NCBI GenBank assembly: GCA_015058145.1
Contig: SVCX01000004.1
Coordinates: 1 to 64,000 of the forward strand
Direction: 5' to 3'
DNA: 64,000 nucleotides
DNA from: Clostridiales bacterium
Lineage (GTDB): Bacteria; Bacillota; Clostridia; Peptostreptococcales; Anaerovoracaceae
Numbering within the stretch: the stretch's first letter is position 1; each line of letters opens with the position of its first letter. The notes below the pieces were generated by a model. The model searched no databases. It was given only the letters and a program-made list of their open reading frames with translations, and had not been told where the DNA came from. Below, piece by piece: positions 5,321-25,556 of the stretch. Position numbers and translations under genes: made by a program.

Positions 5321-5353
5321 CATTAATGTTTATAATACTGCTTTTCGCCCAAC

Positions 5354-7514: not shown

Positions 7515-7607
7515 GTTCAAAAATGAAATATTTTTTGCGAAAATGTATTGACAGTTCATTTCTGAACTGTTAGTATGGCCTCAGAACAACCGTTCAATAA
7601 CGAACGG
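7515..7607 (+). promoter_or_regulatory. Repressor-operator region and sigma70 promoter of the structured RNA (element A)
   Basis: -35 TTGACA 7548-7553, 17-bp spacer, -10 TAGTAT 7571-7576; inverted repeats at 7515-7528 (imperfect), 7551-7570 (ACAGTTCA..TGAACTGT) and 7590-7607 (CCGTTC..GAACGG). Confidence 0.75.
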
Positions 7608-8079: not shown

Positions 8080-8099
8080 CGTGGTCTGAAAGCCGGCAG

Positions 8100-8170
8100 T
8101 GACGGTCATGACGCAGATGACGATGCTTTTGCCCTGGGCAAAATGACCGTCACAATCGTCATCATCGTCA
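8100..8170. repeat. 9-bp-phased TGACG/CGTCA iteron-like block (A)
   Basis: TGACG at 8100, 8109, 8118; CGTCA at 8148, 8157, 8166. Confidence 0.8.
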
Positions 8171-8212
8171 TTCGAAGAGACCACAGGAGCCAAAACAACA
8201 GGAGGTATTATT

Positions 8213-9295
8213 ATGGCTTTCAAACTAATTAGTGCGGAGGAGCTGTTCTATCAGCCGCTGGATCCTGCAAAGGCAGAGATGATCATAGAGGATATGATCC
8301 CGCAGGGCCTGACGCTGATAGCCGGCGCTCCCAAGTCAGGCAAAAGCTGGATGATGCTGGACATGTGCCTTGCCGTATCATCCGGGAGGTCTTTTCTGGG
8401 AAGGAAGACGCTTCACTGCGAGGTCGCATACTTTCCCCTTGAGGATCAGGAAGAACGGGTGAAAAGCAGGATGCTCGATCTGGGTGAGGCGCCGACGCCA
8501 AACCTGCACATCTGCACGGAACGCAAAGACCTGGAGCACGGCTTTCTGAAAGAGCTCCGGGAAACGTTGCAGGAGCATCCGGGGATTCGGATGGTAGTCA
8601 TCGACACGCTGCAGAAGATCCGCGATGACGGCAGCGGCACATCCACGGCGAATCAGTACAGCAAAGACGACGCAGAGGTCTCAAAGCTCAAATCTTTTGC
8701 GGACAATCACGGCATTGCCATCGTCTGTGTACACCACCTGCGGAAGATGCCGGATAAGCGCGACCCTGTCAATGAGATCCTTGGCTCTGCCGCCATGAGC
8801 AGCGTGCCTGACCAGATCCTGCTTTTGAAGAAAGATCGGAGACAGACGCATGGTGAACTGTCTGCCATCGGTCGCGACAGCCCGCAGTGGAGGATGATTC
8901 TGGAGCTCGAGAATGTTCGGTGGAAGCTGATCAAAGAGGAGACTGAACAGGAGATCGCACAGGAAGAGATCCCGGAGGTGCTCTACCGGATCACGGACTT
9001 TATCAGAGAACGCGGCGAGTGGACCGGGACCGCCAGCCAGCTGCTTGAGGCAGCAGGCGAAAAAGAGATGCAGCCGAATATGCTCAGCGCGAAGATATCG
9101 AAGTTCTACTACACGGTCTTCTACCCAGCAGGCATCACCATGACACAGAAGCGTACGGCCAGCGAACGCCTGATGACACTGACGTACCAACCAGAGCCCG
9201 AGAACAATGCTCCGGTTGAAGAGCCGCAGGAGACCTGGGATGAATCCGTTACGAAGGCGAAGCAGATTCTCGCAAAGGGCGGTGAGCGCACATGA
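8213..9295 (+). CDS. RepA-like AAA/RecA-fold ATPase (RSF1010 RepA-like helicase family)
   Basis: Walker A GAPKSGKSW, Walker B-like MVVIDTL, IVCVHHLRK; RBS GGAGG. Confidence 0.82.
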   Translation: MAFKLISAEELFYQPLDPAKAEMIIEDMIPQGLTLIAGAPKSGKSWMMLDMCLAVSSGRSFLGRKTLHCEVAYFPLEDQEERVKSRMLDLGEAPTPNLHICTERKDLEHGFLKELRETLQEHPGIRMVVIDTLQKIRDDGSGTSTANQYSKDDAEVSKLKSFADNHGIAIVCVHHLRKMPDKRDPVNEILGSAAMSSVPDQILLLKKDRRQTHGELSAIGRDSPQWRMILELENVRWKLIKEETEQEIAQEEIPEVLYRITDFIRERGEWTGTASQLLEAAGEKEMQPNMLSAKISKFYYTVFYPAGITMTQKRTASERLMTLTYQPEPENNAPVEEPQETWDESVTKAKQILAKGGERT

Positions 9296-9352
9296 GGTAT
9301 GGCCATGAAATGTATTGCCGTGAGAAGTATGTCTACGAATGTAGCGAGCATA

Positions 9353-9428
9353 GGCGATGTATCGCCGCCGGTGTAGCCGGCCCGGTAAACCGGCCCCGGC
9401 CATACACCGGATTGGGGCCTCCCGCCCC
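9353..9428. other. Candidate oriT hairpin region (A)
   Basis: GGCGATgtATCGCC; GGTGTAGCCGG..CCGGCcaTACACC; GGGGC..GCCCC, just upstream of mobC/relaxase; conserved with 22190-22266. Confidence 0.55.
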
Positions 9429-9501
9429 TATGACCCCGGGAACTTTCCGGCAGAAATTGATTCGATCACACAACAAATTAACAGGAAAGGCAGGTTAAAA
9501 A

Positions 9502-9864
9502 ATGAGGGAACGAAATACAGGGATCAACATCAGAGTAACGGAATCAGAGAAGAAAACGATCACCGAAAACGCCGGACGATGCAACCTGACAGTATCAGAA
9601 TATCTCCGGAAACTGGCGATGGAGCATGAGCCAAAAGAGCTTCCGAAGAGAGAAATCTATGAAGAAATGGTCAGTCTTGACCGGAAATTCCGCCGGCTGT
9701 TGAGCGAACTGGTGCCAAGTGAAGACGCTGCACTGCAGGAAAAATATATCCATGAGCTGCAGGAACTCAGAGACATCATGAACCGGATCTGGCTGCTTCT
9801 GATGGCAAACTACGATGTCAAAAAGGCAGGAAAGAAAGGAGTATCATTAGATGGCAACGACTAA
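9502..9864 (+). CDS. MobC-like relaxosome accessory protein
   Basis: RNTGINIRVTESEKKTITENAGRCNLTVSEYLRKLAM, ribbon-helix-helix MobC pattern, overlaps relaxase start. Confidence 0.82.
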   Translation: MRERNTGINIRVTESEKKTITENAGRCNLTVSEYLRKLAMEHEPKELPKREIYEEMVSLDRKFRRLLSELVPSEDAALQEKYIHELQELRDIMNRIWLLLMANYDVKKAGKKGVSLDGND

Positions 9865-11218
9865 GATATGGCCGATCAAGGACAGTCTGAGACGGGTCAC
9901 GGAATATGCTTCGAATCCGGAGAAAACAGAATATGATGACCTGAAAGCCTCCATCGGCTACGCAGTCAACGGAGAAAAAACGGGATTCGGTGATGAAAAA
10001 GTCTATCTCACCACCGGCATCCGGTGCGATGCAGACACCGCCTTTGAAGAGATGATGGCAGTTAAGGAGTCTTTCGGAAAGACCGGAGGCAATGTAGCCT
10101 ATCATGCGTATCAGAGCTTCAAACCGGGCGAGGTCACGCCGCAGATGTGTCATCAGATCGGCGTCGAACTTGCCGAAAAGCTCTGGGGCGACCGGTATCA
10201 GGTGCTGGTCGCGACACATCTTGACAAAGAGCATCTGCACAATCATTTCATCGTAAATTCTGTCTCCTTCGTTGACGGAAAGAAGTTCAATGACAACAAA
10301 GCTGCTTACCGGAAGCTGCGGCAGACTTCCGATGAACTATGCAGGGAGCACGAACTGTCCGTGATTGAACGACCGGGAGGCAGAACGCCGCGGCAGATCT
10401 ATTTCGCGGAGAAAAACGGCGAAGCGACCAGATACAATCTGATGCGATGGGCAATCGATGATGCAGTCTCCGCGAGTACAAATATTGAGATGTTCGAGGC
10501 TGTTCTCCGGAAGAAGGGCTACCGGATCCGGGCGGACGCAAACCGGAAATACCCGGTGATCTGTTCTGTTTATGGCGGCAGACCTACAAGACTTTATCAG
10601 CTCGGCGCAGAGTATGAACCGCAGAAGATCTATGCGAGGGTCTGTGAAAATGACCTCAGCACCAGAGAAAACTATTACCGGTTCATGTATGGGAACGGCA
10701 TGAGATTTCAGCCAAAGAGGATCCATACACGAAGCCCGAAACCAAAGCAGAAGATCACAGGATTGTTCGCTTTGTATCTGCACTATCTGTATCTTCTCGG
10801 CTACCGGCCGAAGCGAAATCATTATCAGCCGATGACACCTGAAATGAAAGCGGCGATGCGCAAATGCGACGAATATTCCCGGCATGCACGGCTCCTGGCC
10901 AGAGAACATCTCAGCACAGAAGATGACGTGAAAGCACTGATCGACAGATGCGATGAACGCATCACCAGCCTTTGCGATGAACGGCAGAAGATCCGCAACA
11001 GGATGCGAAGATGTCATGACCAGGATGAGCTCACCGGGCTTCGGCAAATGCGGGACAGCCTGACGGCGGAAATCAAAACGCTTCGAACGGATAAGAAAAC
11101 CGCCGGTCAGATCCTGGACCGGGCGGAGCAGATCCGGGAGGATGTGACCAGAGAATACGCCGCTCGGGGCGAGGATCAGAGGCGGAAAACAAAGAAGCAG
11201 GAGCACGAAACAAGATAA
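9851..11218 (+). CDS. Relaxase/mobilization nuclease (MobA/VirD2-like)
   Basis: MATTKIWPIKDSLRRVTEYASNPEKTE...; HLDKEHLHNHFIVNSV histidine triad. Confidence 0.9.
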   Translation: MATTKIWPIKDSLRRVTEYASNPEKTEYDDLKASIGYAVNGEKTGFGDEKVYLTTGIRCDADTAFEEMMAVKESFGKTGGNVAYHAYQSFKPGEVTPQMCHQIGVELAEKLWGDRYQVLVATHLDKEHLHNHFIVNSVSFVDGKKFNDNKAAYRKLRQTSDELCREHELSVIERPGGRTPRQIYFAEKNGEATRYNLMRWAIDDAVSASTNIEMFEAVLRKKGYRIRADANRKYPVICSVYGGRPTRLYQLGAEYEPQKIYARVCENDLSTRENYYRFMYGNGMRFQPKRIHTRSPKPKQKITGLFALYLHYLYLLGYRPKRNHYQPMTPEMKAAMRKCDEYSRHARLLAREHLSTEDDVKALIDRCDERITSLCDERQKIRNRMRRCHDQDELTGLRQMRDSLTAEIKTLRTDKKTAGQILDRAEQIREDVTREYAARGEDQRRKTKKQEHETR

Positions 11219-11292
11219 AAAGAATACGGTATCGAGACACCCTTGTGGGAATCCATTTCTCACAGGGGTTTTGAATTTTAAAGGGGAAAGCT

Positions 11293-12672
11293 ATGAAAAA
11301 AATAGATTGGAGTTTAAGACCGGAGTTACAGGGAATGGTTGAAGATGGTATAATTACGGAGACACAGGCAAGGGAGGTGATAATGAAAGCGAAAAAAACT
11401 GAAGAAGAAAAGAAACGGGATGAACTGCAGGCAATGTTCAGCAAAGTCCATACAGCGCCGATCACGCAGAGCTCCGACGGCAGATGGCGTACGAAAATCA
11501 CAACACCAGATGGGAAGAAGAAAGCGATTGCGAAGACCTATCTTGAAGACATGGAGCGTGCTCTGAATCTGAACTATTTCGGAGTCGAAGGCACGAAAAA
11601 GGTCCTCGAAACCGTAACCATCAGGTCGCTGTATCCGATCTGGCTTGAGGAGAAAAAGCAGCTTCAGGAGGCAAGTACGATCATATCGATCGAATCAAAA
11701 TGGCGCAACGACATCGAACCTTGTGAGCAGCTTGTAGATACGCCGATCAAGGAACTGAACGTCGATATTATCAAAACATGGGCATTGCGGTTGCTCAATG
11801 GGACCGACGGAAAGCCAGGATGCAAGGTTGGACATTTCTACAATGTCAAGGCTATCGTGAATGAGATACTGGACAAGGCTATCGCGCGCGATATCGTGCA
11901 GTATAACGTGTCCAGAAACACAAAGATCGAGGGAATGAAAGCCAGAAAGGCAAAGGAAAAGGCAGCAAACTCGGAAGAGGACGAAGACGATAATCAGGAA
12001 GGAATCATCACTCTGACAGATGAGGAACTGGCAAAGATAGAAGTCGCTGCAAGAGATCTGATGAATGACAAGCAGACCGAACGTCCGCTGACATATCTGA
12101 TGTTCCTCTTTGAGAGGGAAGTCGGACTGAGGATCGGTGAGCTGCTTGAACTGAAGCACAAGGATGTCATGAAAGACGGCCTGCATGTGAGAAGATTCTA
12201 TGCTTATTCAGAAGACTCGATAGACCCGGAAACCGGGGAGAAGGTCTATAAGATTAAGAACTGGCTGAAGAATTACAAGATCTCACGAGTGGTTCCACTG
12301 ACGGATGAAGCTCTTGCCATCCTTGATGAAGTGAAGCGTGTCAAGAAAGAACTTGGCATAGAATCGGACCATCTGTTTTCTATCAATAATCATCCTGTGG
12401 ATTACAGCCATGCGAACCGCTGCATGAAAAAAATGTGCAGAAAAGCAGGTCTTCCCGACCATCGCATGTATGTGTTCCGCAAAACCTGGATCACTGCGAT
12501 GGTAGATCATTCCGATCTTACACTGGCCCAGATCGCGAATCTGGCCGGAAATACGCCGGCAGTCATTATGAAATCCTACTACGGAAGACGGGACGGACTG
12601 CCTGATCCATCAACCATTTCTGCCGCACTCAGAGGCGGCAGTGTTACCAAAAAGTCGCAAGAAATTGCGTAA
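11293..12672 (+). CDS. Tyrosine recombinase/integrase of element A
   Basis: EREVGLRIGELLELKHKDV and FRKTW...AGNTPAVIMKSYYGRRDG; adjacent to att copy 3. Confidence 0.9.
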   Translation: MKKIDWSLRPELQGMVEDGIITETQAREVIMKAKKTEEEKKRDELQAMFSKVHTAPITQSSDGRWRTKITTPDGKKKAIAKTYLEDMERALNLNYFGVEGTKKVLETVTIRSLYPIWLEEKKQLQEASTIISIESKWRNDIEPCEQLVDTPIKELNVDIIKTWALRLLNGTDGKPGCKVGHFYNVKAIVNEILDKAIARDIVQYNVSRNTKIEGMKARKAKEKAANSEEDEDDNQEGIITLTDEELAKIEVAARDLMNDKQTERPLTYLMFLFEREVGLRIGELLELKHKDVMKDGLHVRRFYAYSEDSIDPETGEKVYKIKNWLKNYKISRVVPLTDEALAILDEVKRVKKELGIESDHLFSINNHPVDYSHANRCMKKMCRKAGLPDHRMYVFRKTWITAMVDHSDLTLAQIANLAGNTPAVIMKSYYGRRDGLPDPSTISAALRGGSVTKKSQEIA

Positions 12673-12702
12673 AAAACAAAAAGTGTTACCAAAACTGTTA
12701 CC
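12640..12702 (+). repeat. TGTTACC repeats, putative integrase arm sites (right end of A)
   Basis: AGTGTTACC 12640-12648 and 12682-12690; CTGTTACC 12695-12702; same motif at 1027-1044. Confidence 0.6.
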
Positions 12703-12746
12703 AAAATGCAGTAACCTATCTGAAAAACCATTCCAAAAAAGACGAA

Positions 12747-12770
12747 GGAACGTTGAAATTTCAACGTTCC
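12747..12770. terminator. Palindromic hairpin GGAACGTTGAAATTTCAACGTTCC
   Basis: 24-bp perfect palindrome next to att copy 3. Confidence 0.65.
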
Positions 12771-12775
12771 GTACA

Positions 12776-12798
12776 TGGTGGAGCATAGGGGGATCGAA
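12776..12798. repeat. att core copy 3 (junction of elements A and B)
   Basis: tggtggagcatagggggatcgaa. Confidence 0.92.
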
Positions 12799-12858
12799 GT
12801 TACTCGCAAGACCTTGAATCCTTGATATATCAAGGAGGTCAGACACGCCGTCCCTATT

Positions 12859-12877
12859 AGTATCCAATAAAGTATCC
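12859..12877 (+). repeat. AGTATCC repeats, putative arm sites (left end of B)
   Basis: AGTATCC at 12859-12865 and 12871-12877; matching pair at 25344-25360. Confidence 0.55.
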
Positions 12878-12922
12878 AAAAACACCTTTCGATTCATCAC
12901 AGTCTCTAAGCGGAGTGTTTTT

Positions 12923-13510
12923 TTACCTCTCCAGCATTACACTCTCCTGCACTAGATGAATCACGCCCTGGTCAGCGACCCGCCCGATGCTCTCTGCGGT
13001 CTGATCGATGGTCCACGGCAGTACGCCCTGTTCGATGGCATTCAGGGCGGAAATCACACCGGCGAAATGATAGTGCATGCAGAAAGTGAACTGTTCCTTT
13101 GATGACTGGGACATTTCCCCGAACATGTCTTCCATGAAGGATGTAACATAGTTTATGAGCCTGCTGATGAAAATGCCGTTGCTCCTGCGGATGATCAGAA
13201 GCGGGATGTCGTCATGTTCATGAAACGTCCGTATCATCGTCTTGACCAGCCGGTTCGCGTCGAAAGGATGCTCCGGATCCATTAGAACCGGCGCAAGCCG
13301 CTCACTCATCAGATCCATCAGGTTCCCTTCGATCTCTTCCTGCAGACAGTAGATGTCTTCATAGTAGTCATAAAATGTTGAACGGTTGATGGATGCCGCC
13401 TCGCAGATGTCCCGGACATTTATTTTCGTGATGTCTCTCTCCTTATACAGAGAGAGAAAGGCATTTGTGATTTTCTGCTTTGTCTGTTTTCTCTTATTCT
13501 GGTATGGCAT
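12923..13510 (-). CDS. TetR-family regulator
   Basis: KITNAFLSLYKERDITKINVRDICEAASINRSTFYDYYEDIY. Confidence 0.88.
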   Translation of the reverse strand: MPYQNKRKQTKQKITNAFLSLYKERDITKINVRDICEAASINRSTFYDYYEDIYCLQEEIEGNLMDLMSERLAPVLMDPEHPFDANRLVKTMIRTFHEHDDIPLLIIRRSNGIFISRLINYVTSFMEDMFGEMSQSSKEQFTFCMHYHFAGVISALNAIEQGVLPWTIDQTAESIGRVADQGVIHLVQESVMLER

Positions 13511-15419
13511 AAGCTTGTTCCTCTGTCCCTTTCACTTTATCCTTCTTTATTAAAGAGAGTATCATGAAACAGAGGCCGATGACAACAAGGACCAGCATGC
13601 CTTTGCTGTATTCGCTCCACCAGCTTCCACCCCAGTACAGTATGTTCCTGATTCCGTCCGCAATGAAACGCAGCGGTTCCCACGGGTAGATGTACTTCTG
13701 CCAGAACTGTGGCAGATACTCATACGGGAGATTGGCGACTGCCGTGCCGCAGAACATGATGATGGCCGGAAACGCAACGCCCGGAAGGCCCAACAGATCG
13801 ACTGCTCCGATAATCAGCATCAGAAGACCGAAGCTCGATATGGCAACGAACCGTCCGAGCTCATCCAAAGGCAGATCGACACCTGCCATCCACTGGATGA
13901 CACGCGGCAGTACGAATCCCAGACAAAGAGCAATGGCCGCTGCAAGGATAATCTGGAACGCGAGGCCTTTGACCTTCGCGGACCTTGGTCCCTTCGGCTG
14001 GAGGGTTATGCCGGTCAGAATACCCGGAATCATGGATGTGAACATGGTCAGCATCATGAAGACCACGGCGAAGAACATAGAGTTCAACTCAGTCGGTATT
14101 TCGTTCTGATATTCTATATCGACCTGCATTCCTGATTTCGCCGATAATCCGTTTATGGCTGATGTAAGCGTGCTTGTCACAAGAACATGTCTGCTCTGAT
14201 CTATCGTGAAATGAAGCTTTACCGTCTCTTCGTCTGTATCACTGTCTGTTTCTTCTCCGTTCATTGCCTTGATAACATCAGAGACCCGATTATCCAGTTC
14301 ACCTGACATCGTCCCAAGACCATCGGAGATGCCGCCGACCGCTTCAGACATCTTCTGCGCGCCGGCGCCTGCCTTACCCATGTTGGAAGCCATTGTTCCG
14401 AAACCGTCGGACATTTTTGTTTCTGCCTTTTTGATGCCGGAAAGACCTTCATCAACTTTTCCGGACTGAGCCGCGATCATTGCTGAATTCGTTCCGATTG
14501 TCTGCAGGCCGTCCGCACTGCTTACGCCCTTGGCGCTATCCAGCGCTGCCTGCACTGCGGCAATGTCTTCTTCTGTGATTTCAGAAGGGTCTTTATCGGA
14601 GAGCGCCTTTAGAGCATCCTCAGCGTCGGTCAGATAGCCCTGCAGATCCACCTGATCCTGCTGAACAGCAGCTGTGGCGCCGCTGATTGCCTGTGCTTCC
14701 TTACCCATCATCCCATTAGCTGTCTGAAGTCCCTCTGCTGCCTTTGCGAGATTTGAGGTGGCCTGCCGCATCTTATTGAATGCCGCAGGAAGCTTGCCCA
14801 GTCTGGACCCCATTGTGTCCACTGCATCACCCAGTTTGCCGGTTCCCTCGGACATCTTGTCGAGAGCCTCCGCCAACGTGTTGAACGCTTCCAGCTGAGC
14901 AGTCTGTTTCTCAGAAAAGTCCTTCGGAATTACCAGAAAGGCATAAATGTCCTTATTGTCCAAGGCATTCTGCGCATCCTCTGTATCTCTATATACTTCC
15001 CAGATGATCGGGGACTCCTCATTCGAGTCCGCATCCTCCGCCACATCTGAATCCGCGTCCTCGTCTTCCTCCGGGTTCAATATTCCGTCCAGAATCTTGC
15101 TGCCCAGATTGACGGACCCCTGATCGAACTCGGCGCCCTTATCTAAGTTGATGATTCCCACATGAATGTCCCGCGGCTCCATGTTGACCATGGGGTACAT
15201 CATGAAAGTAATGACAGGAACCAGAATAATCAGAACAAGAAGCGGACGCAGTTTTTTGACAATCGCTCTCCGCCGCTGCATGGTGTTCAGATTATCTACA
15301 TGCCGATTCTCTGGCTCTTTTCTTCGCATCTTCCCCAGCAAAGAAAACACCTCCTCACAAATTTCAACAGTGTGTTGTTTTCTACTGTAATGGTACATTT
15401 TTGAGAAGGTCTGTTTCAA
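13494..15419 (-). CDS. YhgE/Pip-family membrane protein (ABC-2-type exporter-like)
   Basis: N-terminal TM, long coiled central region, C-terminal multi-TM; overlaps tetR gene. Confidence 0.82.
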   Translation of the reverse strand: MKQTFSKMYHYSRKQHTVEICEEVFSLLGKMRRKEPENRHVDNLNTMQRRRAIVKKLRPLLVLIILVPVITFMMYPMVNMEPRDIHVGIINLDKGAEFDQGSVNLGSKILDGILNPEEDEDADSDVAEDADSNEESPIIWEVYRDTEDAQNALDNKDIYAFLVIPKDFSEKQTAQLEAFNTLAEALDKMSEGTGKLGDAVDTMGSRLGKLPAAFNKMRQATSNLAKAAEGLQTANGMMGKEAQAISGATAAVQQDQVDLQGYLTDAEDALKALSDKDPSEITEEDIAAVQAALDSAKGVSSADGLQTIGTNSAMIAAQSGKVDEGLSGIKKAETKMSDGFGTMASNMGKAGAGAQKMSEAVGGISDGLGTMSGELDNRVSDVIKAMNGEETDSDTDEETVKLHFTIDQSRHVLVTSTLTSAINGLSAKSGMQVDIEYQNEIPTELNSMFFAVVFMMLTMFTSMIPGILTGITLQPKGPRSAKVKGLAFQIILAAAIALCLGFVLPRVIQWMAGVDLPLDELGRFVAISSFGLLMLIIGAVDLLGLPGVAFPAIIMFCGTAVANLPYEYLPQFWQKYIYPWEPLRFIADGIRNILYWGGSWWSEYSKGMLVLVVIGLCFMILSLIKKDKVKGTEEQAYAIPE

Positions 15420-15476
15420 CCATCAATTATCCACTTAGTGTTGGATATTCACTGCGTCGATATGGGGCAGCGGTTA

Positions 15477-16337
15477 TCAGGAACGTTCCCGTGCAAACTC
15501 GGCAAACCGTCTGGCTGCCGGCGACATTTCTGTTTTCTTTGGAAGGGCGATCCCGATCTCAACCGGCTGTCTTGGCGAGAGTGGCAGATAGCGAACTCCC
15601 TGCACGAATGATTCCCCGATAATGGCATTCGTACATGTCACACCAAGCCCCGCGGCAACCATTGCATAAGCAGCATAGTTGTCTGATGTGGAGTATTTCA
15701 CGTTCGGAACAACACCGTTTCGACGGAGCATCTGGGAGTTGTCGGTTTCCTTGCCCGGGTAGAGTTCAATGAAATCTTCCGTTCCAAAGGCTTTGACCGG
15801 AAACGATTTCTTTTTTGCCAGCGGATGGGATTCCGGAAGGCATGCGAGCAGTTCATCCTTTATCAATGGTATCCAGTCATAACTGCCCTGCCGGCGGCTG
15901 ATGATACACAGATCTGCCCGGTGTTCCTCCATTGCGGCCACCAGTTCCGTACTGGTACCTTCGATGATTTGCACATCGATTCGAGGGTAAGCTTTCTCAA
16001 AATCCGCAATCAGACCGGCAAACCAGTTGTAATACGCATAGTAGGATGTGCCGATCCGGATCGTGCCGCGCGAAAGCCCCGCCAGTTCTCCTGAGATCTG
16101 GTGATACCGGTCTGCCTGCAAAAGCAATTCCTGCATGACCGGCAAAAGCTGCCGGCACTCTTCTGTGGGAACCACACCGCTGCGGCTTCTGAACAATAGC
16201 GGAAATCCAGTTTCCTCTTCCAGCGCCGCCATCATCCTGCTGATCCCTGATGTCGTATATCCAAGTTTCTCCGCCGCGGCGGTGAGACTTCCTGTTTCAA
16301 TGGTGCATATCAGCGCGTTTATACGTTCCGTATCCAT
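15477..16337 (-). CDS. LysR-family regulator
   Basis: MDTERINALICTIETGSLTAAAEKLGYTTSGISRMMAALEEETGFPLLFR. Confidence 0.92.
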   Translation of the reverse strand: MDTERINALICTIETGSLTAAAEKLGYTTSGISRMMAALEEETGFPLLFRSRSGVVPTEECRQLLPVMQELLLQADRYHQISGELAGLSRGTIRIGTSYYAYYNWFAGLIADFEKAYPRIDVQIIEGTSTELVAAMEEHRADLCIISRRQGSYDWIPLIKDELLACLPESHPLAKKKSFPVKAFGTEDFIELYPGKETDNSQMLRRNGVVPNVKYSTSDNYAAYAMVAAGLGVTCTNAIIGESFVQGVRYLPLSPRQPVEIGIALPKKTEMSPAARRFAEFARERS

Positions 16338-16457
16338 ATATACTTTCGTCTCTTTCTTGACTATTCATCAACTATATCTTGATTTATTCTCGTTTTACTC
16401 AATATTAAAACTGGAATACAATCATGTCAAGAAGTGACAATCGTTGAGGTGATTTAA

Positions 16458-17429
16458 ATGCTGAACATTTCCGGAAACAAAATAGATATCAGTTTTAAGA
16501 CCGGTTGCCTGCTGATGGCGGCGCTGAGCATAGCCCGCGGTTCATCGTTCCTGTTTTCCAAGCATCTGCTTGGAAGTATGGAGCCTTTGAATCTATTGGG
16601 AATTCGTTTCCTGCTAGCGTTCCTCATTCTCTTTTTGCTGTTTTCGCGTAAGGTTATTGCAGACATCAAAGATAATCCCCGCGTCATCAGTGTCTCGCTT
16701 TTGCTTGGAGGCGTTTATTTCCTGTGCATGGCAGCAGAACTGACCGGTCTCCAGTATACGACGGCCTCCACATGCTCTTTTCTGGAAAACAGCGCCATCG
16801 TGATCGTTCCTGTGATCGAAGCGTTTCTCCTTCGAAGATTTCCGAAACCGGTCATCATCGCCAGCACGATCATCACATTCCTTGGCATCGGCCTCATCGT
16901 GTTTCACGGCAGCACAGGAGCGGCAGCAGCAGGAGGCTCACTGCTGACCGGAAGCCACTTGGGCCTCGGTGAAATCCTTTGCATGATCGCAGCCCTGACT
17001 TATGCCGCGGCAATCATCATCACGGACCGGATCTCAAAAAAATATGACCCGATGACCCTCGGTATTCTCTACGTCGGGTTCATGGGTCTGATGGGAATAC
17101 TTGCATCCTTCTTCGTTGAAACGCCGCACCTTCCTGACGGCGGATCTCAGTGGATCATGCTCCTTGCATTGGCAATCCTGTGTACTGCATTTGGGTTTAC
17201 GATCCAGCCGGTGGCGCAGAGACCGCTTTCCTCGGAAACCGCAGGTATCATCTGCGCGGTCAATCCGCTGACCACCGCGATCCTTGGCTGGCTGCTGATG
17301 GGCGATGCACTGGGTATCTTGGGTATTACCGGTGCGATTCTCATTCTTGCGGGAATAATATTGCCGAATGTGGATTTGAAGAAATATGTTCCGGAAAAGA
17401 AGTTCGCAAACCAGTGTGCTCTCAAATAA
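16458..17429 (+). CDS. EamA/DMT-family transporter
   Basis: Ten hydrophobic segments, divergent from lysR. Confidence 0.88.
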   Translation: MLNISGNKIDISFKTGCLLMAALSIARGSSFLFSKHLLGSMEPLNLLGIRFLLAFLILFLLFSRKVIADIKDNPRVISVSLLLGGVYFLCMAAELTGLQYTTASTCSFLENSAIVIVPVIEAFLLRRFPKPVIIASTIITFLGIGLIVFHGSTGAAAAGGSLLTGSHLGLGEILCMIAALTYAAAIIITDRISKKYDPMTLGILYVGFMGLMGILASFFVETPHLPDGGSQWIMLLALAILCTAFGFTIQPVAQRPLSSETAGIICAVNPLTTAILGWLLMGDALGILGITGAILILAGIILPNVDLKKYVPEKKFANQCALK

Positions 17430-17462
17430 AGTAACATGATTGTTTCTTTAGGCTAAAACAAT

Positions 17463-18060
17463 CTACTCCCAGTCTTTCCACTGCGTCCGATGTGCAATGT
17501 CAGCAACAAGTTCTCCGTTATATGTGAAAAACGATGGACCTGCGACAGAACCTCCCTTAATCGCACCCGCAATTGCTGATAAGGAAGTGATTTCATCATT
17601 ATATTGAACTTTCCGATCACTGACTACAATAGCTTTTACCGACGGATCGTCCACATAGATAAGTTCCGCTCCCTTTGGAATCCCACACTTTGTGAAATTG
17701 ACCGGCGGACGTTTGACTGTCTGTTTGCTTTGAACATTCTTTACGCGCTTTAGTTTATCCTTGGTGCCGCTGATCGTAGCGATAGCTTCAAGCAGTTCGA
17801 AAGCATCTTCGGGTGATAGAATATAAAACTCCCGCTTTGGTGTGACACGAAGATCCGGATTAAGATTATCTATCATTTTATGAAGCTTTTTGTCTTCGAG
17901 TTTGCCTGGTGTTTCATAGATGGCATATATCTCGTAGCCATAAGGCAGCGCTGTAGTACTTAGCTGCTGACGTCTTGTTTCCACATCCGCGGCATATCCG
18001 ATTTTGACCATATCCTTTAAAGCAGGATTGGTCATAATGTAAATATATCCCTTGGCCATG
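17463..18060 (-). CDS. GIY-YIG/T5orf172-type nuclease-domain protein
   Basis: MAKGYIYIMTNPALKDMVKIGYAADVETRRQQLSTTALPYGYEIYAIYETP. Confidence 0.78.
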
Positions 18061-18118
18061 TTGTTATCCTCCTCACGCTGTACTGTAACATTTCTTCTCC
18101 GCAATTATTATGAATTCT

Positions 18119-19693
18119 CTACTTATCCATGCTTATTTTCCAATAGCCGCCTTTGTCACCGCCAACGTGCTCTATGATTCCCTCATTCCGCAGTTTTTTG
18201 ATGTGGTATTTTACACCGTCAGCAGTAATTCCCAGTTCCTTTGCCATTAATTCTCGTGTGATGTTTGGATCTTTTCTCATCAGTTCAAGAACTCGGTCTC
18301 TGGTTTTCTGGGTAGTTTTCTGGGTAGTTTTCTGGGTAGTTTTCTGGGTAGTTTTCTGGGTAGTTTCTTTATTTGTTCCCGTCTTTTCCTCCTCAATGCG
18401 AATTTGTGCAAACTCTTCGTTGATGTACGCCGTAACCATTGTATAATCGTCTGACTCATTTTCCGGCTCAAACACCAGATTCGGCGAATGATTGTCTGCC
18501 ATCGCCTGTTTGGCCCTGCGGATGCCGGAGCCATAAGACTGGATCAAATCCAGACTGAAGAACATCTCCTTCAGCTCCGCATTCAGGTACTGCCGATCAT
18601 TGAACTCTGTTTTCTCATTCAGATCTTCAATGGTCACAGGCGGAAGAGGACGATTGTGATTGATAAACACAAGATGATCCTGATACCAATAGATACCGAT
18701 ATAATTCCTGCGGGAGTATTCTTTGTGCAGGATGCAGTTTACCGCCAACTCGTTGAACATGGTTTCCGGCCAGTTATAGACGACATGAGTGTCATTTGTG
18801 ATACTGTCACGCACATTGTATGAGGCTTGAATCATATCTCTGAAATATCGAATCACCTGTTGCGCCTGGATCCAGATCGGTCCGTCAAAGTTCTTTGATT
18901 CCATTTTATCTGTTCCGATCGCTTCCCGGATGATCACCACTCTTGCCTCAGGGATGAAATCTGCCGGACGTTCAGCAAACATCAAAACTGCAAAATTCTT
19001 CGCCCTGTGTCCGCCGTACTCACTATCGCTGATCAGATTCATTGCCCGCGCCATGTCCAGTTTCGATAATGCTCTGATATCTGGTGCTGCATTTGTACGC
19101 ACAAGATATTCCTTCATGTATTCATAGCTGAGATCATCCAGTGTTGCCGTTTCATTCAATTCCGAAGAAAAATGATAGTCCGCAAACTTCTTAAGCAGCT
19201 CAAACTCTTCCCGCCTGTTCGGTATGCGGGTATCTCTCCTGACCCGGATATACCGGCCGGCTTTAAGCTTGATCTCTTTGATCTCTTCAGCTTTCTCACT
19301 TGTTTCATAAGGACCGTCGTTGCCCGGCTCAACTGCGAGGATAATGTACTTCCTGTCATCGATGTCATCCTGGATCAGATGATATGTGATCTTCGGATGG
19401 ACATGGGCGAGCAGAGATTTCAGCTCATTCTCTGTTTTCTCGATCATGGATTCCTTGATCCCTGAGATCGGTCTCACCGGAATCGCCTTCTGTCCTGACT
19501 CATCATTCACTTCTTCAACACCTATGAACAGCAGCCCTATCTCACGGTTCATATAGTTGTTCGCATAAGCGCACGCCGTCTTCAGGATCCGATCCTTGAA
19601 TCGTGCTGACTTTTTATACTCGATATAGTCATCTTCAACAGCCTGACGTTCAATAATGTCATGTGCCATTGTTCTGATATCTTCTAATCTCAT
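18119..19693 (-). CDS. AlbA_2 (Schlafen-like) ATP-binding protein with C-terminal winged HTH
   Basis: N-terminal AlbA_2-like domain (EDDYIEYKKSARFKDRILKTACAYANNYMNREIGLLFIGVEEV), TTQK linker, MAKELGITADGVKYHIKKLRNEGIIEHVGGDKGGYW. Confidence 0.85.
   Translation of the reverse strand: MRLEDIRTMAHDIIERQAVEDDYIEYKKSARFKDRILKTACAYANNYMNREIGLLFIGVEEVNDESGQKAIPVRPISGIKESMIEKTENELKSLLAHVHPKITYHLIQDDIDDRKYIILAVEPGNDGPYETSEKAEEIKEIKLKAGRYIRVRRDTRIPNRREEFELLKKFADYHFSSELNETATLDDLSYEYMKEYLVRTNAAPDIRALSKLDMARAMNLISDSEYGGHRAKNFAVLMFAERPADFIPEARVVIIREAIGTDKMESKNFDGPIWIQAQQVIRYFRDMIQASYNVRDSITNDTHVVYNWPETMFNELAVNCILHKEYSRRNYIGIYWYQDHLVFINHNRPLPPVTIEDLNEKTEFNDRQYLNAELKEMFFSLDLIQSYGSGIRRAKQAMADNHSPNLVFEPENESDDYTMVTAYINEEFAQIRIEEEKTGTNKETTQKTTQKTTQKTTQKTTQKTRDRVLELMRKDPNITRELMAKELGITADGVKYHIKKLRNEGIIEHVGGDKGGYWKISMDK
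18304..18363. repeat. 12-bp tandem repeat x5 inside the AlbA_2 gene
   Basis: Five identical copies of ttttctgggtag encoding (TTQK)n. Confidence 0.95.
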
Positions 19694-19726
19694 TGCTCGG
19701 TTCTCCTTCTAAGTATATCTGTGATG

Positions 19727-20419
19727 TCACTTATTATCCTCTTCATAAACCGTTCGCAGGTTCTCTATTTCTTCTTCCGTAAGGTTATCCCAGAACTCGT
19801 CCGGCAGTTTGATTGAAGCCAGCGACTGGTTCTGATCGTAGATCACTGCATTCCCTTTCTTATCAAACCCGGAGAACGCCGGATATTTGAACTTCCAGTC
19901 TTCATACGTTTTCTGATCCATCAGTCCTTTCTGGTAGTCCATATATGCTTCATACCAGTTTCCAACCTGATTCTCCAGATCGAGCGCAGCTCCGGGCGCC
20001 GGGATCTTCTCAAAGAGTTCATCCAGTTCCTGCTTCTCTTCCTCCGTCAGTTCCGGCTCCTCATCTGCGAATGGATCATCGCCGATCAGCTCTCTGAGCC
20101 GCCCGGTATCAAACCTGAGGACCAGCTGGTCATCGATCACGTCCGGCTTCAGCTGATACATTTCCTCCATTTCGAAGAGAAAATGCAGCGTCCGGTTGAT
20201 CTCAGACATGCCGTACATATCCAGCGCATAATAGCTGATCTTCAGCGCATCCGCAATCATGGTCAATGTAGTCCTGCCCGGCGTGCGGTTATCCAGTTCA
20301 TAATTTCTAAGAGCGGATTCGCTCAAATCGAGCATCTCCGCCAGTTCCTTCTGCGTAAGGCCCGCTCTCTTGCGGAAATACCGGATCCTCTGACCAAGTG
20401 TATATCCTAAAAACAGCAT
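19727..20419 (-). CDS. XRE-family repressor of element B
   Basis: HTH IRYFRKRAGLTQKELAEMLDLSESALRNYELDNRTP; homolog of 6792-7469. Confidence 0.88.
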   Translation of the reverse strand: MLFLGYTLGQRIRYFRKRAGLTQKELAEMLDLSESALRNYELDNRTPGRTTLTMIADALKISYYALDMYGMSEINRTLHFLFEMEEMYQLKPDVIDDQLVLRFDTGRLRELIGDDPFADEEPELTEEEKQELDELFEKIPAPGAALDLENQVGNWYEAYMDYQKGLMDQKTYEDWKFKYPAFSGFDKKGNAVIYDQNQSLASIKLPDEFWDNLTEEEIENLRTVYEEDNK

Positions 20420-20465
20420 GATTTGTCCCTCCGTGTCTTATTCTGCATTCATTATAACAAAAACC

Positions 20466-20557
20466 GTTCGAAAATGAAATATTTTTGTGAAAATGTATTG
20501 ACAGTTCATTTTTGAACTGTTATGATGGCATCAGATAATCCGTTCACTATTGAACGG
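20466..20557 (+). promoter_or_regulatory. Repressor-operator region and sigma70 promoter of the structured RNA (element B)
   Basis: TTGACA 20498-20503, 17-bp spacer, TATGAT 20521-20526; ACAGTTCA..TGAACTGT 20501-20520; CCGTTCA-CTAT-TGAACGG 20540-20557. Confidence 0.77.
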
Positions 20558-20993
20558 AACAAACCTTGACAACTGAATACCCATCATCAGGAACTTTCGT
20601 TTCGACTGCGAGCATGCGATGACCGGCGCGCCATGATCCCGGACCTTCCGGGGGAGCGAGAAACGCTATGAGGATCCAAAAGGGCAGATGGCATCTGCAA
20701 ATGTGCCACGACCAGCGGAGCGGACAATGATACTTCCGTCCGGCCATTTCGGTGGGGGCGGCCCGTGGAGATCCTTCGGGGGGTTCGATTCCCATGAGAG
20801 TGCTGCCCAGTCCAGCAGCCGCCTGATGACAGAGCCGGGAAGGCCCGGCAGCGCAGGTGGATGCGCTTCGAATGGATCCACCTATTACATTACATCAAAG
20901 CCCTGTTATACACATTACAGCTGGCATACATAGTCGTTTGGTAACACCTTTTTTGTGGTGCCATCAAACCGGCTGTGTATGCCGGCTTTTTTT
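20533..20993 (+). ncRNA. ~460-nt structured non-coding RNA, copy B (ends in intrinsic terminator 20922-20993)
   Basis: Same blocks as 7583-8079 with compensatory stem changes; terminator GGCATACATAG..GTTTG..CACC..GGTG..CAAAC..CTGTGTATGCC + T7. Confidence 0.77.
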
Positions 20994-21016
20994 CGTGGCC
21001 GAAATGCCCGGCATCG

Positions 21017-21087
21017 TGACGATCGTGACGCAGATGACGATGTTTTCGCCTTGTGTGTCATCACCGTCATTACCGTCATCATCGTCA
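21017..21087. repeat. 9-bp-phased TGACG/CGTCA iteron-like block (B)
   Basis: TGACG at 21017, 21026, 21035; CGTCA at 21065, 21074, 21083. Confidence 0.8.
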
Positions 21088-21133
21088 TCCGACAGTGCCA
21101 CATATGCCAACACACATCAAGGAGGTAAATGAT

Positions 21134-22138
21134 ATGGCATTCAAACTAACACGGGCAGAAGACTTCTTTTACGAACCGATGGCGCATGAGAAGTCCGACA
21201 TGATCGTAGAAGACCTGATCCCGAAAGGCCTCACGATCCTCGCAGGCGCGCCCAAGTCATGCAAAAGCTGGATGGCTCTGGATCTGAGCCTGGCGGTATC
21301 ATCCGGAAGACCGTTTCTGGGGAAGGAAACAAAGGCATGCGGCGTGATCTACTTCGCCTTTGAAGACGGCGAAATGCGTGTCAGGCGAAGAGCTCTGGAT
21401 CTGGCAGAGATCCCTGACCACCGCCTTTGTATCTGCACCGAGCAGAAAACTCTTGATCAGGATTTCATCAAAGAACTGGATGAAACTCTGGGCGACGGTG
21501 GGGAGTTCGGACTTGTGATCATCGACACGCTGCAAAAGATCAGGGGCGGCAGCACTAATGCGTCTGCTGCAAATCAGTACGGGAATGAATACGCCGAGAT
21601 CTCGCAGCTAAAAACCTATGCCGAACGCAAAGGCATCGCTATCGTCTGTATCCATCATCTGCGTAAGATGCGGGACAAGCTGGATCCGGTCAATGAGATA
21701 CTCGGCTCTGCAGCCATGAGCGGCGTACCGGATCAGATCCTGCTTCTGAAGAAAGACCGGCTGCAGACATGCGGCGAGTTATCAATCGTCGGACGTGACG
21801 GACCGCAGTGGAAGATGCTGCTTCATTTCGAAGAGCTGCGATGGCAGCTTGTGAAGGTCGAGACCGAAGAAGAACTGATGCGTGAGGAGATCCCTGAGAT
21901 CCTTTACCGCATCGCGGAGATGGTCGAGGCAAGCGGCAGCTGGACCGGTACAGCATCCAGGCTGCTGGAGGAAATGGCCGAGACTGACATGCCGCCGAAC
22001 GTTCTGAGCGCGAAGATGTCCAAATATTTCTATGAGGTCTTCTACCCTGCCGGGATCACGATGGCATCCCGCCGGACGGCAAGAGAAAGGCAGTTCGTCC
22101 TCAGCTGCGAAAGAACGCAGGAGGTCACCGATGCATGA
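21134..22138 (+). CDS. RepA-like AAA/RecA-fold ATPase with altered Walker A
   Basis: Homolog of 8213-9295; RBS GGAGGT at 21121; reads GAPKSCKSW instead of GAPKSGKSW. Confidence 0.82.
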   Translation: MAFKLTRAEDFFYEPMAHEKSDMIVEDLIPKGLTILAGAPKSCKSWMALDLSLAVSSGRPFLGKETKACGVIYFAFEDGEMRVRRRALDLAEIPDHRLCICTEQKTLDQDFIKELDETLGDGGEFGLVIIDTLQKIRGGSTNASAANQYGNEYAEISQLKTYAERKGIAIVCIHHLRKMRDKLDPVNEILGSAAMSGVPDQILLLKKDRLQTCGELSIVGRDGPQWKMLLHFEELRWQLVKVETEEELMREEIPEILYRIAEMVEASGSWTGTASRLLEEMAETDMPPNVLSAKMSKYFYEVFYPAGITMASRRTARERQFVLSCERTQEVTDA

Positions 22139-22189
22139 GCATGTCATGTATCGCCACGAAAAGTATGTCTCCGGGGTTAGCGAGCATAG

Positions 22190-22266
22190 GCGATGTATCG
22201 CCGCCGGTGTAGCCATGCCGGAAAAACCCGTCATGGCAATACACCGAAGTCAGGGGCTCAGCCCCT
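22190..22266. other. Candidate oriT hairpin region (B)
   Basis: GGCGATgtATCGCC; GGTGTAGCCATG..CATGGCaaTACACC; GGGGCtcaGCCCC. Confidence 0.55.
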
Positions 22267-22310
22267 ATCACCCCGGGACTTTGCATCGAAAAATGAAAGG
22301 GTATGGTGTA

Positions 22311-22667
22311 ATGAGAATGAGAAACAGAAACACAGGAATCAACATACGCGTGACCGATAAAGAGAAAGAGATCATCGCTGCAAACGCATCCAAATGCGGA
22401 CTGACCATATCAGAATATCTTCGTCAGCTTGCGACAAAACACGATCCGAAGGAGCTTCCGAAAAAGAAGATCTATGACGATATGATCAAAATGGATCATC
22501 AAATTGATCTCATGCAAAGGCTGACCGACTCAGAATCCGGCACGAAAAACAAACAGAATTATGAGATCGTATTCCGGAATATGCGCAGGCTGCAGCAGCA
22601 CATCTGGCATCTTCTGCTCTCCAATTTTGACAGCGGGAAAGGAGGTGCGCAGGATGGCAACGACTAA
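22311..22667 (+). CDS. MobC-like relaxosome accessory protein
   Basis: RNTGINIRVTDKEKEIIAANASKCGLTISEYLRQLA; overlaps relaxase. Confidence 0.8.
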   Translation: MRMRNRNTGINIRVTDKEKEIIAANASKCGLTISEYLRQLATKHDPKELPKKKIYDDMIKMDHQIDLMQRLTDSESGTKNKQNYEIVFRNMRRLQQHIWHLLLSNFDSGKGGAQDGND

Positions 22668-24012
22668 GATATGGCCGGTCAAAGGCAGACTGAAAGACGT
22701 GACCGACTATGCGGCAAATCCTCAGAAAACAGAATGGGATGATCTCAGAAATTCGATCGAATATGCGGTAAACGGAGAGAAAACTTCGCCTGGACCAGAT
22801 GAAAAAGCGTTCCTTACAAGCGGCATCCACTGCGATGCCGCTTGTGCGTATGAGGACATGATGGCGGTGAAAAAAGCCTTTGGAAAGACAGGAGGAAATG
22901 TTGCTTACCACGCCTATCAAAGCTTCAGGCCGGGAGAAGTGACGCCGGAGGAATGTCACAGGATAGGGCTGGAACTTGCCGAAAAACTCTGGGGAGACAA
23001 CTATCAGGTTCTGGTTGCGACTCATCTGGATCGGGAACATCTGCACAATCATTTCGTCATCAATTCCGTTTCATACGTGGACGGAAAAAAGTTCAATGAC
23101 AACAAAGCGGCTTACCGCCTGCTGCGGGAAACTTCCGATGAGATATGCAGCGAACATGGCCTGTCCGTCATCGAACATCCCAGAGGCAGAACACCGCGCC
23201 AGATCTATCTGGCGGAAAAAAACGGTGAGCCGACGAAGTATAATCTCATGCGCTGGGCCATCGATGAATCCGTCGCGATGAGCACCAATCAGCAGATGTT
23301 TGAAGCTGTGCTGAAGAAAAAGGGCTATGTCATCCGAATGGACCCTCGCAGAAAATATCCCGTCATCCGTTCGATCTACGGCGGCAGATCTGTCAGGTTA
23401 TATCATCTGGGAGAGGAGTATGAGCCTCAGCGGATCATTGCAAGAGTCAGTGAAAATGACGAACGTGTCTGGGAAAAATATTACGGGTTCATGCATGATA
23501 CGGGCGTCATCATTCGGCCCGGTAAAATCAGGATCCATGCCGCAAGGCCAAAGCATAAGATCACCGGTATCTTCGCATTATATATCCATTATCTCTACCT
23601 GTTGGGGTATCGTCTGAAGAGGCCGAACTACCAGCCTCTGACGCCGGAAATGAAATCCGCGCTGCGTAAATGTGATGAATATTCCAGACACGCCAGGCTT
23701 CTCGCCAGAGAGCATCTGCACACAGAATCCGACGTTCACTGCTTCATCGAACGGACGGAAGATAAGATCGGCAGCCTTTGCACACAGCGTCAAAAGATTG
23801 CAAACAAACTGCGCCGCTGTAAAGATCCGGTTCAGATCCGGCAGCTGAAGGCACAGCGAACCTCTCTGACCTGTGAGATCACAGATCTGCGCCAGGACAG
23901 AAAAACAGCCGGCAGGATCCTCGACCGTGCAGAGACGATACGTGCTGATATTGCCAGAGAAACAGCCGCCCTGCAGCAGCAAAAGCAAAGAAAGAAGGTG
24001 CTGGAGAGATGA
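22654..24012 (+). CDS. Relaxase/mobilization nuclease
   Basis: MATTKIWPVKGRLKDVTDYAANPQKTE...HLDREHLHNHFVINSV. Confidence 0.9.
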   Translation: MATTKIWPVKGRLKDVTDYAANPQKTEWDDLRNSIEYAVNGEKTSPGPDEKAFLTSGIHCDAACAYEDMMAVKKAFGKTGGNVAYHAYQSFRPGEVTPEECHRIGLELAEKLWGDNYQVLVATHLDREHLHNHFVINSVSYVDGKKFNDNKAAYRLLRETSDEICSEHGLSVIEHPRGRTPRQIYLAEKNGEPTKYNLMRWAIDESVAMSTNQQMFEAVLKKKGYVIRMDPRRKYPVIRSIYGGRSVRLYHLGEEYEPQRIIARVSENDERVWEKYYGFMHDTGVIIRPGKIRIHAARPKHKITGIFALYIHYLYLLGYRLKRPNYQPLTPEMKSALRKCDEYSRHARLLAREHLHTESDVHCFIERTEDKIGSLCTQRQKIANKLRRCKDPVQIRQLKAQRTSLTCEITDLRQDRKTAGRILDRAETIRADIARETAALQQQKQRKKVLER

Positions 24013-25313
24013 CTGTAAAGCGTAACACCAGTATCCTGACAGAGCAGGAACCTTCTGATGCGGACATTCTGGATTTTATCGCCAAACACCCTGAAGAATG
24101 TTTACACCTTCGCAGAGATGATGGTAGTATAGATATGGACGGCGTGGAAACGCAAATGAAAAAAACAAGGAGGAAACAAGTTCTTGAGTCACATCCATAC
24201 TCCATCTATCAGGGCAGTGATGGACGGTGGCGCACACATATTAAAGACGAAGAAAAGGCAGAAGGAAGAAAGCTTATTGTCAGAAAATCCCGTGATGATC
24301 TGGAGGATATCCTTTGCGATTTCTATCTGACGGATCATGAAGCACAGAGGCGTCTCAGTCATACAATGGAGTCGCTTTATGAGGAATGGCTGGAATACAA
24401 GGCACTTCATGTCGCCAGCACGACCATCGATCGAACGAAGCGGTGCTGGAACAAATACTATGCCGGTGAAGACATTATCAGAAAGCCGATCGTCCAAATC
24501 ACCAAACTGGATCTGGACATATGGATCCATGAAATGATACGCCGACACGAAATGAAGAAGCATCAGTTCGATAATTTCAAGTCGGTCGTCAGGCAGGAGC
24601 TTGACTACGCAGTGGATCTCGAAATCATTGAATCCAACCCGTTCCTCAGTGTAAGGATCAATACCAGACGGATGCTTCAGCCTGAACGAAAGAAGTCTGA
24701 CAAGACACAGATCTATTTCAAAGATGAATTGACTAAACTGCAGGAAATGGCCTGGGATGAATATTATAAAGGTGTCTATCCCACGCATCAACTGACGCCT
24801 CTGGCAGTCATGTTCATGTTTCTGACAGGTATTCGTGTCGGTGAGGTATGTGGTCTGCGGTATGAGGATATTGATGATCGGGAGCTTACGATTCGAAGGT
24901 TCATCCGGTATCCTGGCAATGAAGTTGTGAACCATACGAAAGGTACTTACGGAGACCGAACCATTCCTTTGATTCCGCAGGCGATCCATCTGATCGAAAC
25001 TGCCAGAACCAGACAGCGGGAGAAAGGCACACCCGATGATGGATATATATTCTCCATGCGGGAGGACCCAATTCTGTACACATCCGTTACAAAAGCATTC
25101 ACCAAGTACTGCGAAAAAATGGGGATCATTACTAAGAGTTCGCACAAAGCCAGAAAGACATTTATTTCAAGTCTGATCGAAGGCAATGTCAACATTAACA
25201 CCGTTCGTCAGTACGCAGGCCATGTGGATGAGAGGACGACTCTGAACAACTACTGTTTTGACCGCAGCACGGACGAAGAAAAGTATGTGAAGATGGAAAA
25301 AGCCCTCGCCTGA
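24009..25313 (+). CDS. Tyrosine recombinase/integrase of element B
   Basis: TGIRVGEVCGLRYEDI, HKARKTFISSL, YAGHVDERTTLNNYCF. Confidence 0.92.
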   Translation: MTVKRNTSILTEQEPSDADILDFIAKHPEECLHLRRDDGSIDMDGVETQMKKTRRKQVLESHPYSIYQGSDGRWRTHIKDEEKAEGRKLIVRKSRDDLEDILCDFYLTDHEAQRRLSHTMESLYEEWLEYKALHVASTTIDRTKRCWNKYYAGEDIIRKPIVQITKLDLDIWIHEMIRRHEMKKHQFDNFKSVVRQELDYAVDLEIIESNPFLSVRINTRRMLQPERKKSDKTQIYFKDELTKLQEMAWDEYYKGVYPTHQLTPLAVMFMFLTGIRVGEVCGLRYEDIDDRELTIRRFIRYPGNEVVNHTKGTYGDRTIPLIPQAIHLIETARTRQREKGTPDDGYIFSMREDPILYTSVTKAFTKYCEKMGIITKSSHKARKTFISSLIEGNVNINTVRQYAGHVDERTTLNNYCFDRSTDEEKYVKMEKALA

Positions 25314-25343
25314 CTGCCTGAACAAGTCAAAAAACTTCAGAAA

Positions 25344-25360
25344 AGTATCCATGAGTATCC
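25344..25360 (+). repeat. AGTATCC repeats, putative arm sites (right end of B)
   Basis: AGTATCC at 25344-25350 and 25354-25360. Confidence 0.55.
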
Positions 25361-25455
25361 GAAAATCCGTTATTTCATATTAACTATTACACGTTATAGC
25401 ATGAAGGATTCAGGGGTCGAAAACCCAGTCACACCAACGCTTAAGAATAGCAAAA

Positions 25456-25473
25456 GAGACGCTTTCGCGTCTC
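25456..25473. terminator. Hairpin GAGACGC-TTTC-GCGTCTC downstream of tRNA-Ala
   Basis: 7-bp inverted repeat immediately 3' of the tRNA. Confidence 0.65.
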
Positions 25474-25480
25474 CCTGAAT

Positions 25481-25556
25481 TGGTGGAGCATAGGGGGATC
25501 GAACCCCTGACCTCGTGATTGCGAACCACGCGCTCTCCCAGCTGAGCTAATGCCCC
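25481..25556 (-). tRNA. tRNA-Ala (anticodon CGC), CCA encoded
   Basis: GGGGCATTAGCTCAGCTGGGAGAGCGCGTGGTTCGCAATCACGAGGTCAGGGGTTCGATCCCCCTATGCTCCACCA; G3:U70 identity pair. Confidence 0.97.

Follow-up and report, generated by a model that had tools for sequence, protein, structure and literature searches.

Among the RNA elements described as acting by processive antitermination, canT of Tn916 is the best-studied relative of the RNAs analysed here. It works in cis, does not need other Tn916 genes and overcomes several terminators, and unrelated terminators placed 3′ of it are overcome as well (PMC11658703). Its authors also tried canT in trans and concluded that it acts in cis, proposed that it contacts RNA polymerase, and called its predicted structure difficult to interpret (PMC11658703). 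Within a 452-bp construct, antitermination was abolished both by a 162-bp deletion in canT and by the S3 mutation (ATA to TGC, 283 nt after orf8), whereas S3 has hardly any effect on a canT fragment of 400 bp, which is active (PMC11658703), so that sensitivity to S3 depends on context. RNA-based processive antitermination in cis is also known for EAR (eps) and HK022 put (reviewed in PMC8955417, PMC11658703). RNA-based processive antitermination is described as well for conAn of pLS20, which heads a conjugation operon, consists of the ConAn1 protein and the conAn2 RNA and also requires a protein as processivity factor (PMC8955417). NusB and S10 are bound by boxA in rRNA and lambda antitermination (PMC12691694). 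Finally, Rfam lists the pemK RNA (RF02913), a 61-position model that spans the helices called P6 to P8 below and is typed only as cis-regulatory; its base pairs have been improved in Rfam, with no function given (PMC7657543, PMC11701678).

The window, that is the whole stretch of 64,000 nucleotides that was analysed, carries the 21-bp end of a tRNA-Ala(cgc) three times (925–945, 12779–12799 with one mismatch, and 25484–25504) and therefore contains two elements integrated in tandem, each about 12 kb long. Element A (925–12799) and element B (12779–25504) are mobilizable, lie in one tRNA-Ala gene and share their layout: a repressor-like gene (HTH_3) in divergent orientation, a promoter that carries dyads, an RNA-like region (about 7584–8080 in A, 20533–20993 in B), a terminator, and an operon encoding an ATPase, a NikA-like protein, a relaxase and a tyrosine integrase in this order. 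A protein search for the ATPase in a collection of genome contigs found one near-identical locus only. The features around the two RNAs are as follows.

7548–7576, plus strand: promoter of RNA A, TTGACA-17-TAGTAT
8003–8080, plus strand: intrinsic terminator after RNA A (−44 kcal/mol)
11239–11278, plus strand: second terminator-like site of operon A, between relaxase and integrase
19727–20419, minus strand: HTH_3 (Cro/CI-type) repressor-like gene of element B, divergent from the RNA (HTH_3 4.3e-12)
20498–20526, plus strand: promoter of RNA B, TTGACA-17-TATGAT with extended −10 (11 of 12 consensus bases; start expected near 20533)
20502–20519, no strand assigned: dyad CAGTTCATTTTTGAACTG between −35 and −10 of B, a likely operator, binding inferred from sequence alone
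20540–20557, no strand assigned: dyad CCGTTCACTATTGAACGG shortly 3′ of the start of B, a likely second operator, binding likewise inferred
20919–20993, plus strand: intrinsic terminator of B, between RNA and ATPase gene (long hairpin, then T7; −43 kcal/mol)
21134–22138, plus strand: AAA_25/DnaB-like ATPase, first gene 3′ of the terminator (AAA_25 3.1e-28; start set by the Shine–Dalgarno AGGAGG at 21120–21125)
within 22032–22667: NikA-like mobilization protein of element B
22561–24012, plus strand: MobA/VirD2-type relaxase of element B
24009–25313, plus strand: tyrosine integrase of element B (7.4e-21)

We regard it as very probable that RNAs A and B are canT-type processive antitermination RNAs heading the mobilization operons of these tandem elements, a function that is inferred, as expression and reporter data are lacking. 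The argument rests on the RNA family to which both copies belong, on its kinship with canT and on the genes and signals that surround it.

Rfam pemK is present in both copies, with 55.5 bits in B and 47.1 bits in A against a gathering threshold of 34.8. In a comparison set of 100 retrieved regions with pemK loci, the sequence common to the loci extends about 150–170 nt upstream and about 30 nt downstream of the Rfam model. Rfam pemK is only the 3′ third of an RNA of about 250 nt, and the boxA-like element, P1 to P5, P9 and the kissing loop, all features of the extended family RNA, lie outside RF02913. A seed alignment of 29 loci, running from P1 to P1, was the source of the 253-position model R1, which was matched by all 59 of 59 held-out pemK sources. 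Two other routes failed: an automatic longest-helix search for P1 chose wrong partners at many loci and served as a lead only, and 42 mixed sequences aligned with MAFFT left too many gaps to derive a consensus, where a narrower set succeeded. The parts of the RNA are located as follows.

7630–7876, plus strand: core of RNA A, with pemK at 7771–7848 (R1 177.2 bits; A is among the 29 seeds)
20579–20829, plus strand: core of RNA B, P1 to P1 (R1 162.2 bits, positions 1–253; B is among the 29 seeds)
20585–20828, plus strand: closing helix P1 of B (the TCATCAGG strand starts at 20585, the CCTGATGA strand ends at 20828)
20596–20604 with 20716–20724, plus strand: P2 of B, enclosing P3, P4 and P5
20638–20652, plus strand: P4 hairpin of B, CCCGGA/TCCGGG
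20684–20698, plus strand: P5 hairpin of B, GCAGAT/ATCTGC, its loop a partner in the kissing interaction
20724–20797, plus strand: pemK RF02913 of B; 20724–20726 is the equivalent of the Tn916 canT S3 mutation site
20801–20817, plus strand: P9 hairpin of B, TGCTG/CAGCA, whose loop CCA (20807–20809) can pair weakly with TGG (20689–20691)
20834–20882, plus strand: 3′ hairpins of B, GCCGGG/CCCGGC and GGTGGAT/ATCCACC

In the family fold, P1 closes the RNA and P2 and P3 lie within it, followed by the hairpins P4, which is nested in an almost invariant CGC/GCG, and P5, by the pemK part (P6, P7 and P8, the last with a T-loop-like loop) and by the hairpin P9. A further helix, P3b, between the strand 3′ of P3 and the strand 5′ of P5, is provisional; it is paired in only 56–64%, in part from misalignment, and is poorly formed in A and B. 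The 29-sequence alignment supports 12 helices including the kissing loop, with 87.7% of cells paired (71.4 when shuffled, 37–44 when slid), two-sided changes in 55 of 68 pairs and a covariation score of 0.473 compared to 0.185 shuffled and about 0.1 slid. For a second alignment, 65 R1 matches, 63 of them from outside the window, were fitted to the model, giving 89.3% paired cells, two-sided changes in 56 of 64 pairs and a score of 0.623 against 0.188, values that are biased upward because of this fitting.

The R1 model used to build the 65-match alignment did not include the kissing interaction, which was found by a column-pair search and joins the P5 loop to the P9 loop. Its pairings include UUGC/GCAA, UGGC/GCCA, CAGC/GCUG and UGGU/ACCA as well as UUAGCAG/UUGCUAA in Tn916; in B it is weak (UGG/CCA). 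Across the 65 matches 89.5% of its cells are paired, against 20–56% for slid controls, and its covariation score was not reached in any of 500 shuffles. P1 to P9 and the kissing loop are thus supported by covariation.

The sequence-only reading had compared the two copies and proposed that paired changes in several helices are compensatory and mark a structured RNA of the plus strand; pemK, the boxA-like element, the kissing loop and the relation to Tn916 canT were not part of that reading. All stems that it quoted were located at exact positions on the plus strand, namely P4 (A 7689/7697, B 20638/20647), P5 (A 7731/7740, B 20684/20693), P9 (A 7849/7863, B 20801/20813), the 3′ hairpins (A 7881/7891 and 7899/7921, B 20834/20844 and 20856/20876), the terminator stems (A 8022/8052 and 8029/8044, B 20936/20965 and 20945/20957) and CCAT..GTGG (B 20744/20752). 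About four clean one-pair compensations lead from A to B: G-C to A-U in P5, U-A to C-G in P4, and C-G to G-C in both a 3′ hairpin and the terminator. P9, GGTGGAT/ATCCACC and the inner terminator stem have been remade without base-for-base compensation. Since only 3 of the 66 comparable consensus pairs differ on both sides, the A/B pair on its own is modest, merely suggestive evidence, and it is the homolog family that is decisive for the question. About 100 homologs bear out the compensatory nature of the changes and the structured plus-strand RNA; their alignments rule out misalignment as the source of the paired changes, and most stems recur in further homologs. The hairpins 3′ of 20829 exist as proposed but are not part of the family model. 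Two blocks described as identical and unpaired (7658/20607 and 7769/20722) are indeed identical in A and B but not fully single-stranded: in the family fold, the 5′ strands of P3, P4a and P6 and the 3′ end of P2 fall within them. Strandedness, argued at first from a U-G pair in CCAT..GTGG, follows from the excess of G-U pairs over A-C mismatches at paired positions (298 versus 101), which identifies the plus strand as the RNA. Unconstrained folds of A and B conflict with one another and with the consensus, and single-sequence folding is therefore misleading for these RNAs.

A and B are homologs of Tn916 canT, and all three belong to one extended RNA family. At loci such as L045, pemK lies directly 5′ of the xis and int genes in a Tn916-type element, and in Tn916 canT has been mapped to the same place (PMC11658703). 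In the Tn916 sequence used, which comes from an Enterococcus plasmid (L135), canT includes pemK at 4038–4138 with 55.0 bits, over gathering, and R1, although made without Tn916, fits canT end to end (positions 1–253, 106.6 bits, E 3.8e-32). The S3 site corresponds to L135 4038–4040 and thereby to pemK positions 1–3 (AUA), which read ACA, a frequent family variant, in A and B; the published 162-bp deletion takes out the whole of pemK in Tn916. An R1 match of 125.3 bits was also obtained in a Tn1549-like vanB element. canT shares with A and B the whole extended RNA, the boxA-like start, P1, P2, the kissing loop and mobile-element genes 3′, and A and B also have the canT-type feature of a terminator 3′ in the same transcript. 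The settings differ, as canT sits in an ICE, with orf8 and xis on either side, and acts chiefly on terminators reached after excision, whereas A and B are found in mobilizable elements, 3′ of a repressor-flanked promoter and with a terminator immediately behind the RNA. No tie of pemK/RF02913 to canT or antitermination was found in the literature, most subscription papers being outside the scope, so that an earlier statement is not excluded. Homology to conAn2 was not found, and the pLS20 stretches compared have neither an RF02913 match (L137) nor an R1 match at E up to 1 (L134, L137, L138). Other Rfam families did not match the window RNAs, and no homology to EAR was seen; put was not directly compared.

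Upstream of the fold, both copies carry a boxA-like element.

7614–7629, plus strand: boxA-like 16-mer CTTTGACAATTGAATA of copy A (16 of 16 against the spacer-type consensus)
20564–20579, plus strand: boxA-like 16-mer CCTTGACAACTGAATA of copy B (15 of 16 against the spacer-type consensus)

The family consensus, YUUUGAMAAYUGAAUA, stands mostly immediately 5′ of the fold and is matched in at least 12 of 16 positions by 65 of 90 RNAs, as compared to 16 of 526 control windows. A separate boxA consensus derived from established rrn sequences was matched in at least 11 of 13 positions in 58 of 99 cases, against 3 of 97 and 4 of 90 controls. The exact pattern occurs 11 times in five genomes: five occurrences sit 155–198 nt 5′ of a pemK RNA and the other six, all in one genome, behind 16S 3′ ends (16S–23S spacers). 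The likeness to rrn antitermination (boxA, NusB, S10) extends to an identical 16-mer behind 16S rRNA in a related genome; in A and B, by contrast, boxA is joined to a large conserved fold with mobile-element genes 3′. By coordinates, the active 452-bp canT fragment starts at TTGAAAACTG and is without the first part of boxA, which is therefore perhaps dispensable there, and in the Tn1549-like copy the boxA match is poor (9 of 16). Any role of boxA in A and B, including recruitment of NusB–S10, is inferred in the absence of binding data. In other antitermination systems, lambda N or SuhB fill the partner role. Quite tentatively, we suggest that pemK/canT RNAs borrow the host's rRNA antitermination machinery, with boxA loading NusB–S10 and the folded RNA, through its conserved AYAAUGAUACU strand and the kissing loop, replacing lambda N/SuhB. 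If this holds, the strategy is widespread, and one RNA family would gate integration, mobilization, partition and toxin genes in a large fraction of Bacillota mobile elements.

As canT-type antiterminators, A and B might work as follows. In a dormant element the divergent repressor would, by inference, keep the promoter shut. Once repression is lifted, polymerase would make the leader, comprising the boxA-like site and then the fold of about 250 nt, closed by P1 and braced by the kissing loop. The nascent RNA is presumed to remain with its own polymerase and to confer terminator resistance, both being inferences for A and B. The modified polymerase could then pass the terminator next to the RNA, and the site inside operon A, and transcribe the genes for ATPase, mob protein, relaxase and integrase; stray transcription in which the RNA was not produced would halt at the terminator behind it. 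Terminator-like sites 3′ of family RNAs show only a moderate excess, 53 of 89 compared with 26 of 89 for simple shuffles.

The strong promoter and strong terminator that flank the RNA, together with the occurrence of boxA in rRNA transcripts (PMC12691694), would also suit a stand-alone noncoding RNA of about 460 nt that is released at the terminator and acts in trans, boxA merely helping polymerase to complete it. We consider this improbable: canT was found to be cis-acting after a test in trans (PMC11658703), same-strand genes lie 3′ at most loci, and no promoter-like site above threshold is present between terminator and ATPase start in either A or B. The chances are smaller again for an attenuator of riboswitch type, in which the fold would sense a ligand or protein and switch only the adjacent terminator via an antiterminator stem. 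Core fold and terminator are separate hairpins, with no shared alternative strand seen in A or B, canT is effective on unrelated terminators 3′ of it (PMC11658703), and the downstream genes have no common metabolic theme, although a big, conserved and complex fold directly 5′ of terminator and gene is what such an attenuator would have, and Rfam does type pemK as cis-regulatory.

Within the host's bacterial family, pemK was found in 95 of 353 genomes, and R1 matches in 31 of 399 genomes sampled across the phylum (own genome included in both counts). The genes 3′ of pemK RNAs are mobile-element genes encoding PemK toxin, recombinases, ParA and DnaB-like ATPase; the 126 proteins scanned include 34 PemK/MazF, 23 serine recombinases, 17 phage integrases, seven ParA-type proteins and six AAA_25 proteins. 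Given this variety, the name pemK mirrors one frequent neighbour. A replication or copy-control RNA, or a DNA hairpin of the element, is hardly credible despite the DnaB-like ATPase as next gene and the palindromic repeats between terminator and gene, since PemK toxin or recombinase genes rather than replication genes follow most relatives, the G-U excess indicates selection as plus-strand RNA, and canT of Tn916 is an antiterminator. The palindromic repeats (GTGACGGTCATGACGCAGATGACGATG...CATCATCGTCATC, 8099–8197 and 21016–21114) are common to A and B and are possibly an origin or a further hairpin.

Antitermination is likely the function of the hitherto unexplained Rfam family pemK. RNA antiterminators of the canT kind are already known, and A and B belong there; the full structure, the kissing loop, the link to boxA and the repressor–terminator layout in mobilizable elements appear undescribed in the accessible literature. 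The antitermination reading unites an RNA family of unexplained function (pemK) with a proven antiterminator that lacked a family and a comparative structure (canT), two subjects that the accessible papers treat apart. It also hints at how mobile elements prevent expression of costly operons before their own promoter is active, and provides a testable structure, kissing loop included.

Several further observations were made. R1 matches are present in 22 of 80 viral contigs, chosen by a 15-base pattern, 19 of them with at least 59 bits; the full-length RNAs of pemK/canT type on contigs with a viral classification (L197, L214, L179, L234 and others) represent either phage or a misclassified element. 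Between RNA and gene, many loci (e.g. L108, L117 and L126, 3′ of P1) show a recurring element, CCGGGGTGYCGNGGACAAAT followed by a hairpin and often by TTTTACAT, which may be a conserved terminator or else an additional element. Just outside element A (567–610) and again inside it (6640–6683) lies a direct repeat of 44 nt (98% identical). The cargo of element B (12923–18104) encodes a weak TetR-like regulator, an ABC-2 membrane protein, a LysR regulator, an EamA transporter and a T5orf172 protein, and a tandem 12-bp repeat, GTTTTCTGGGTA, at 18303–18378 lies within a Schlafen AlbA_2 ORF (18119–19693).
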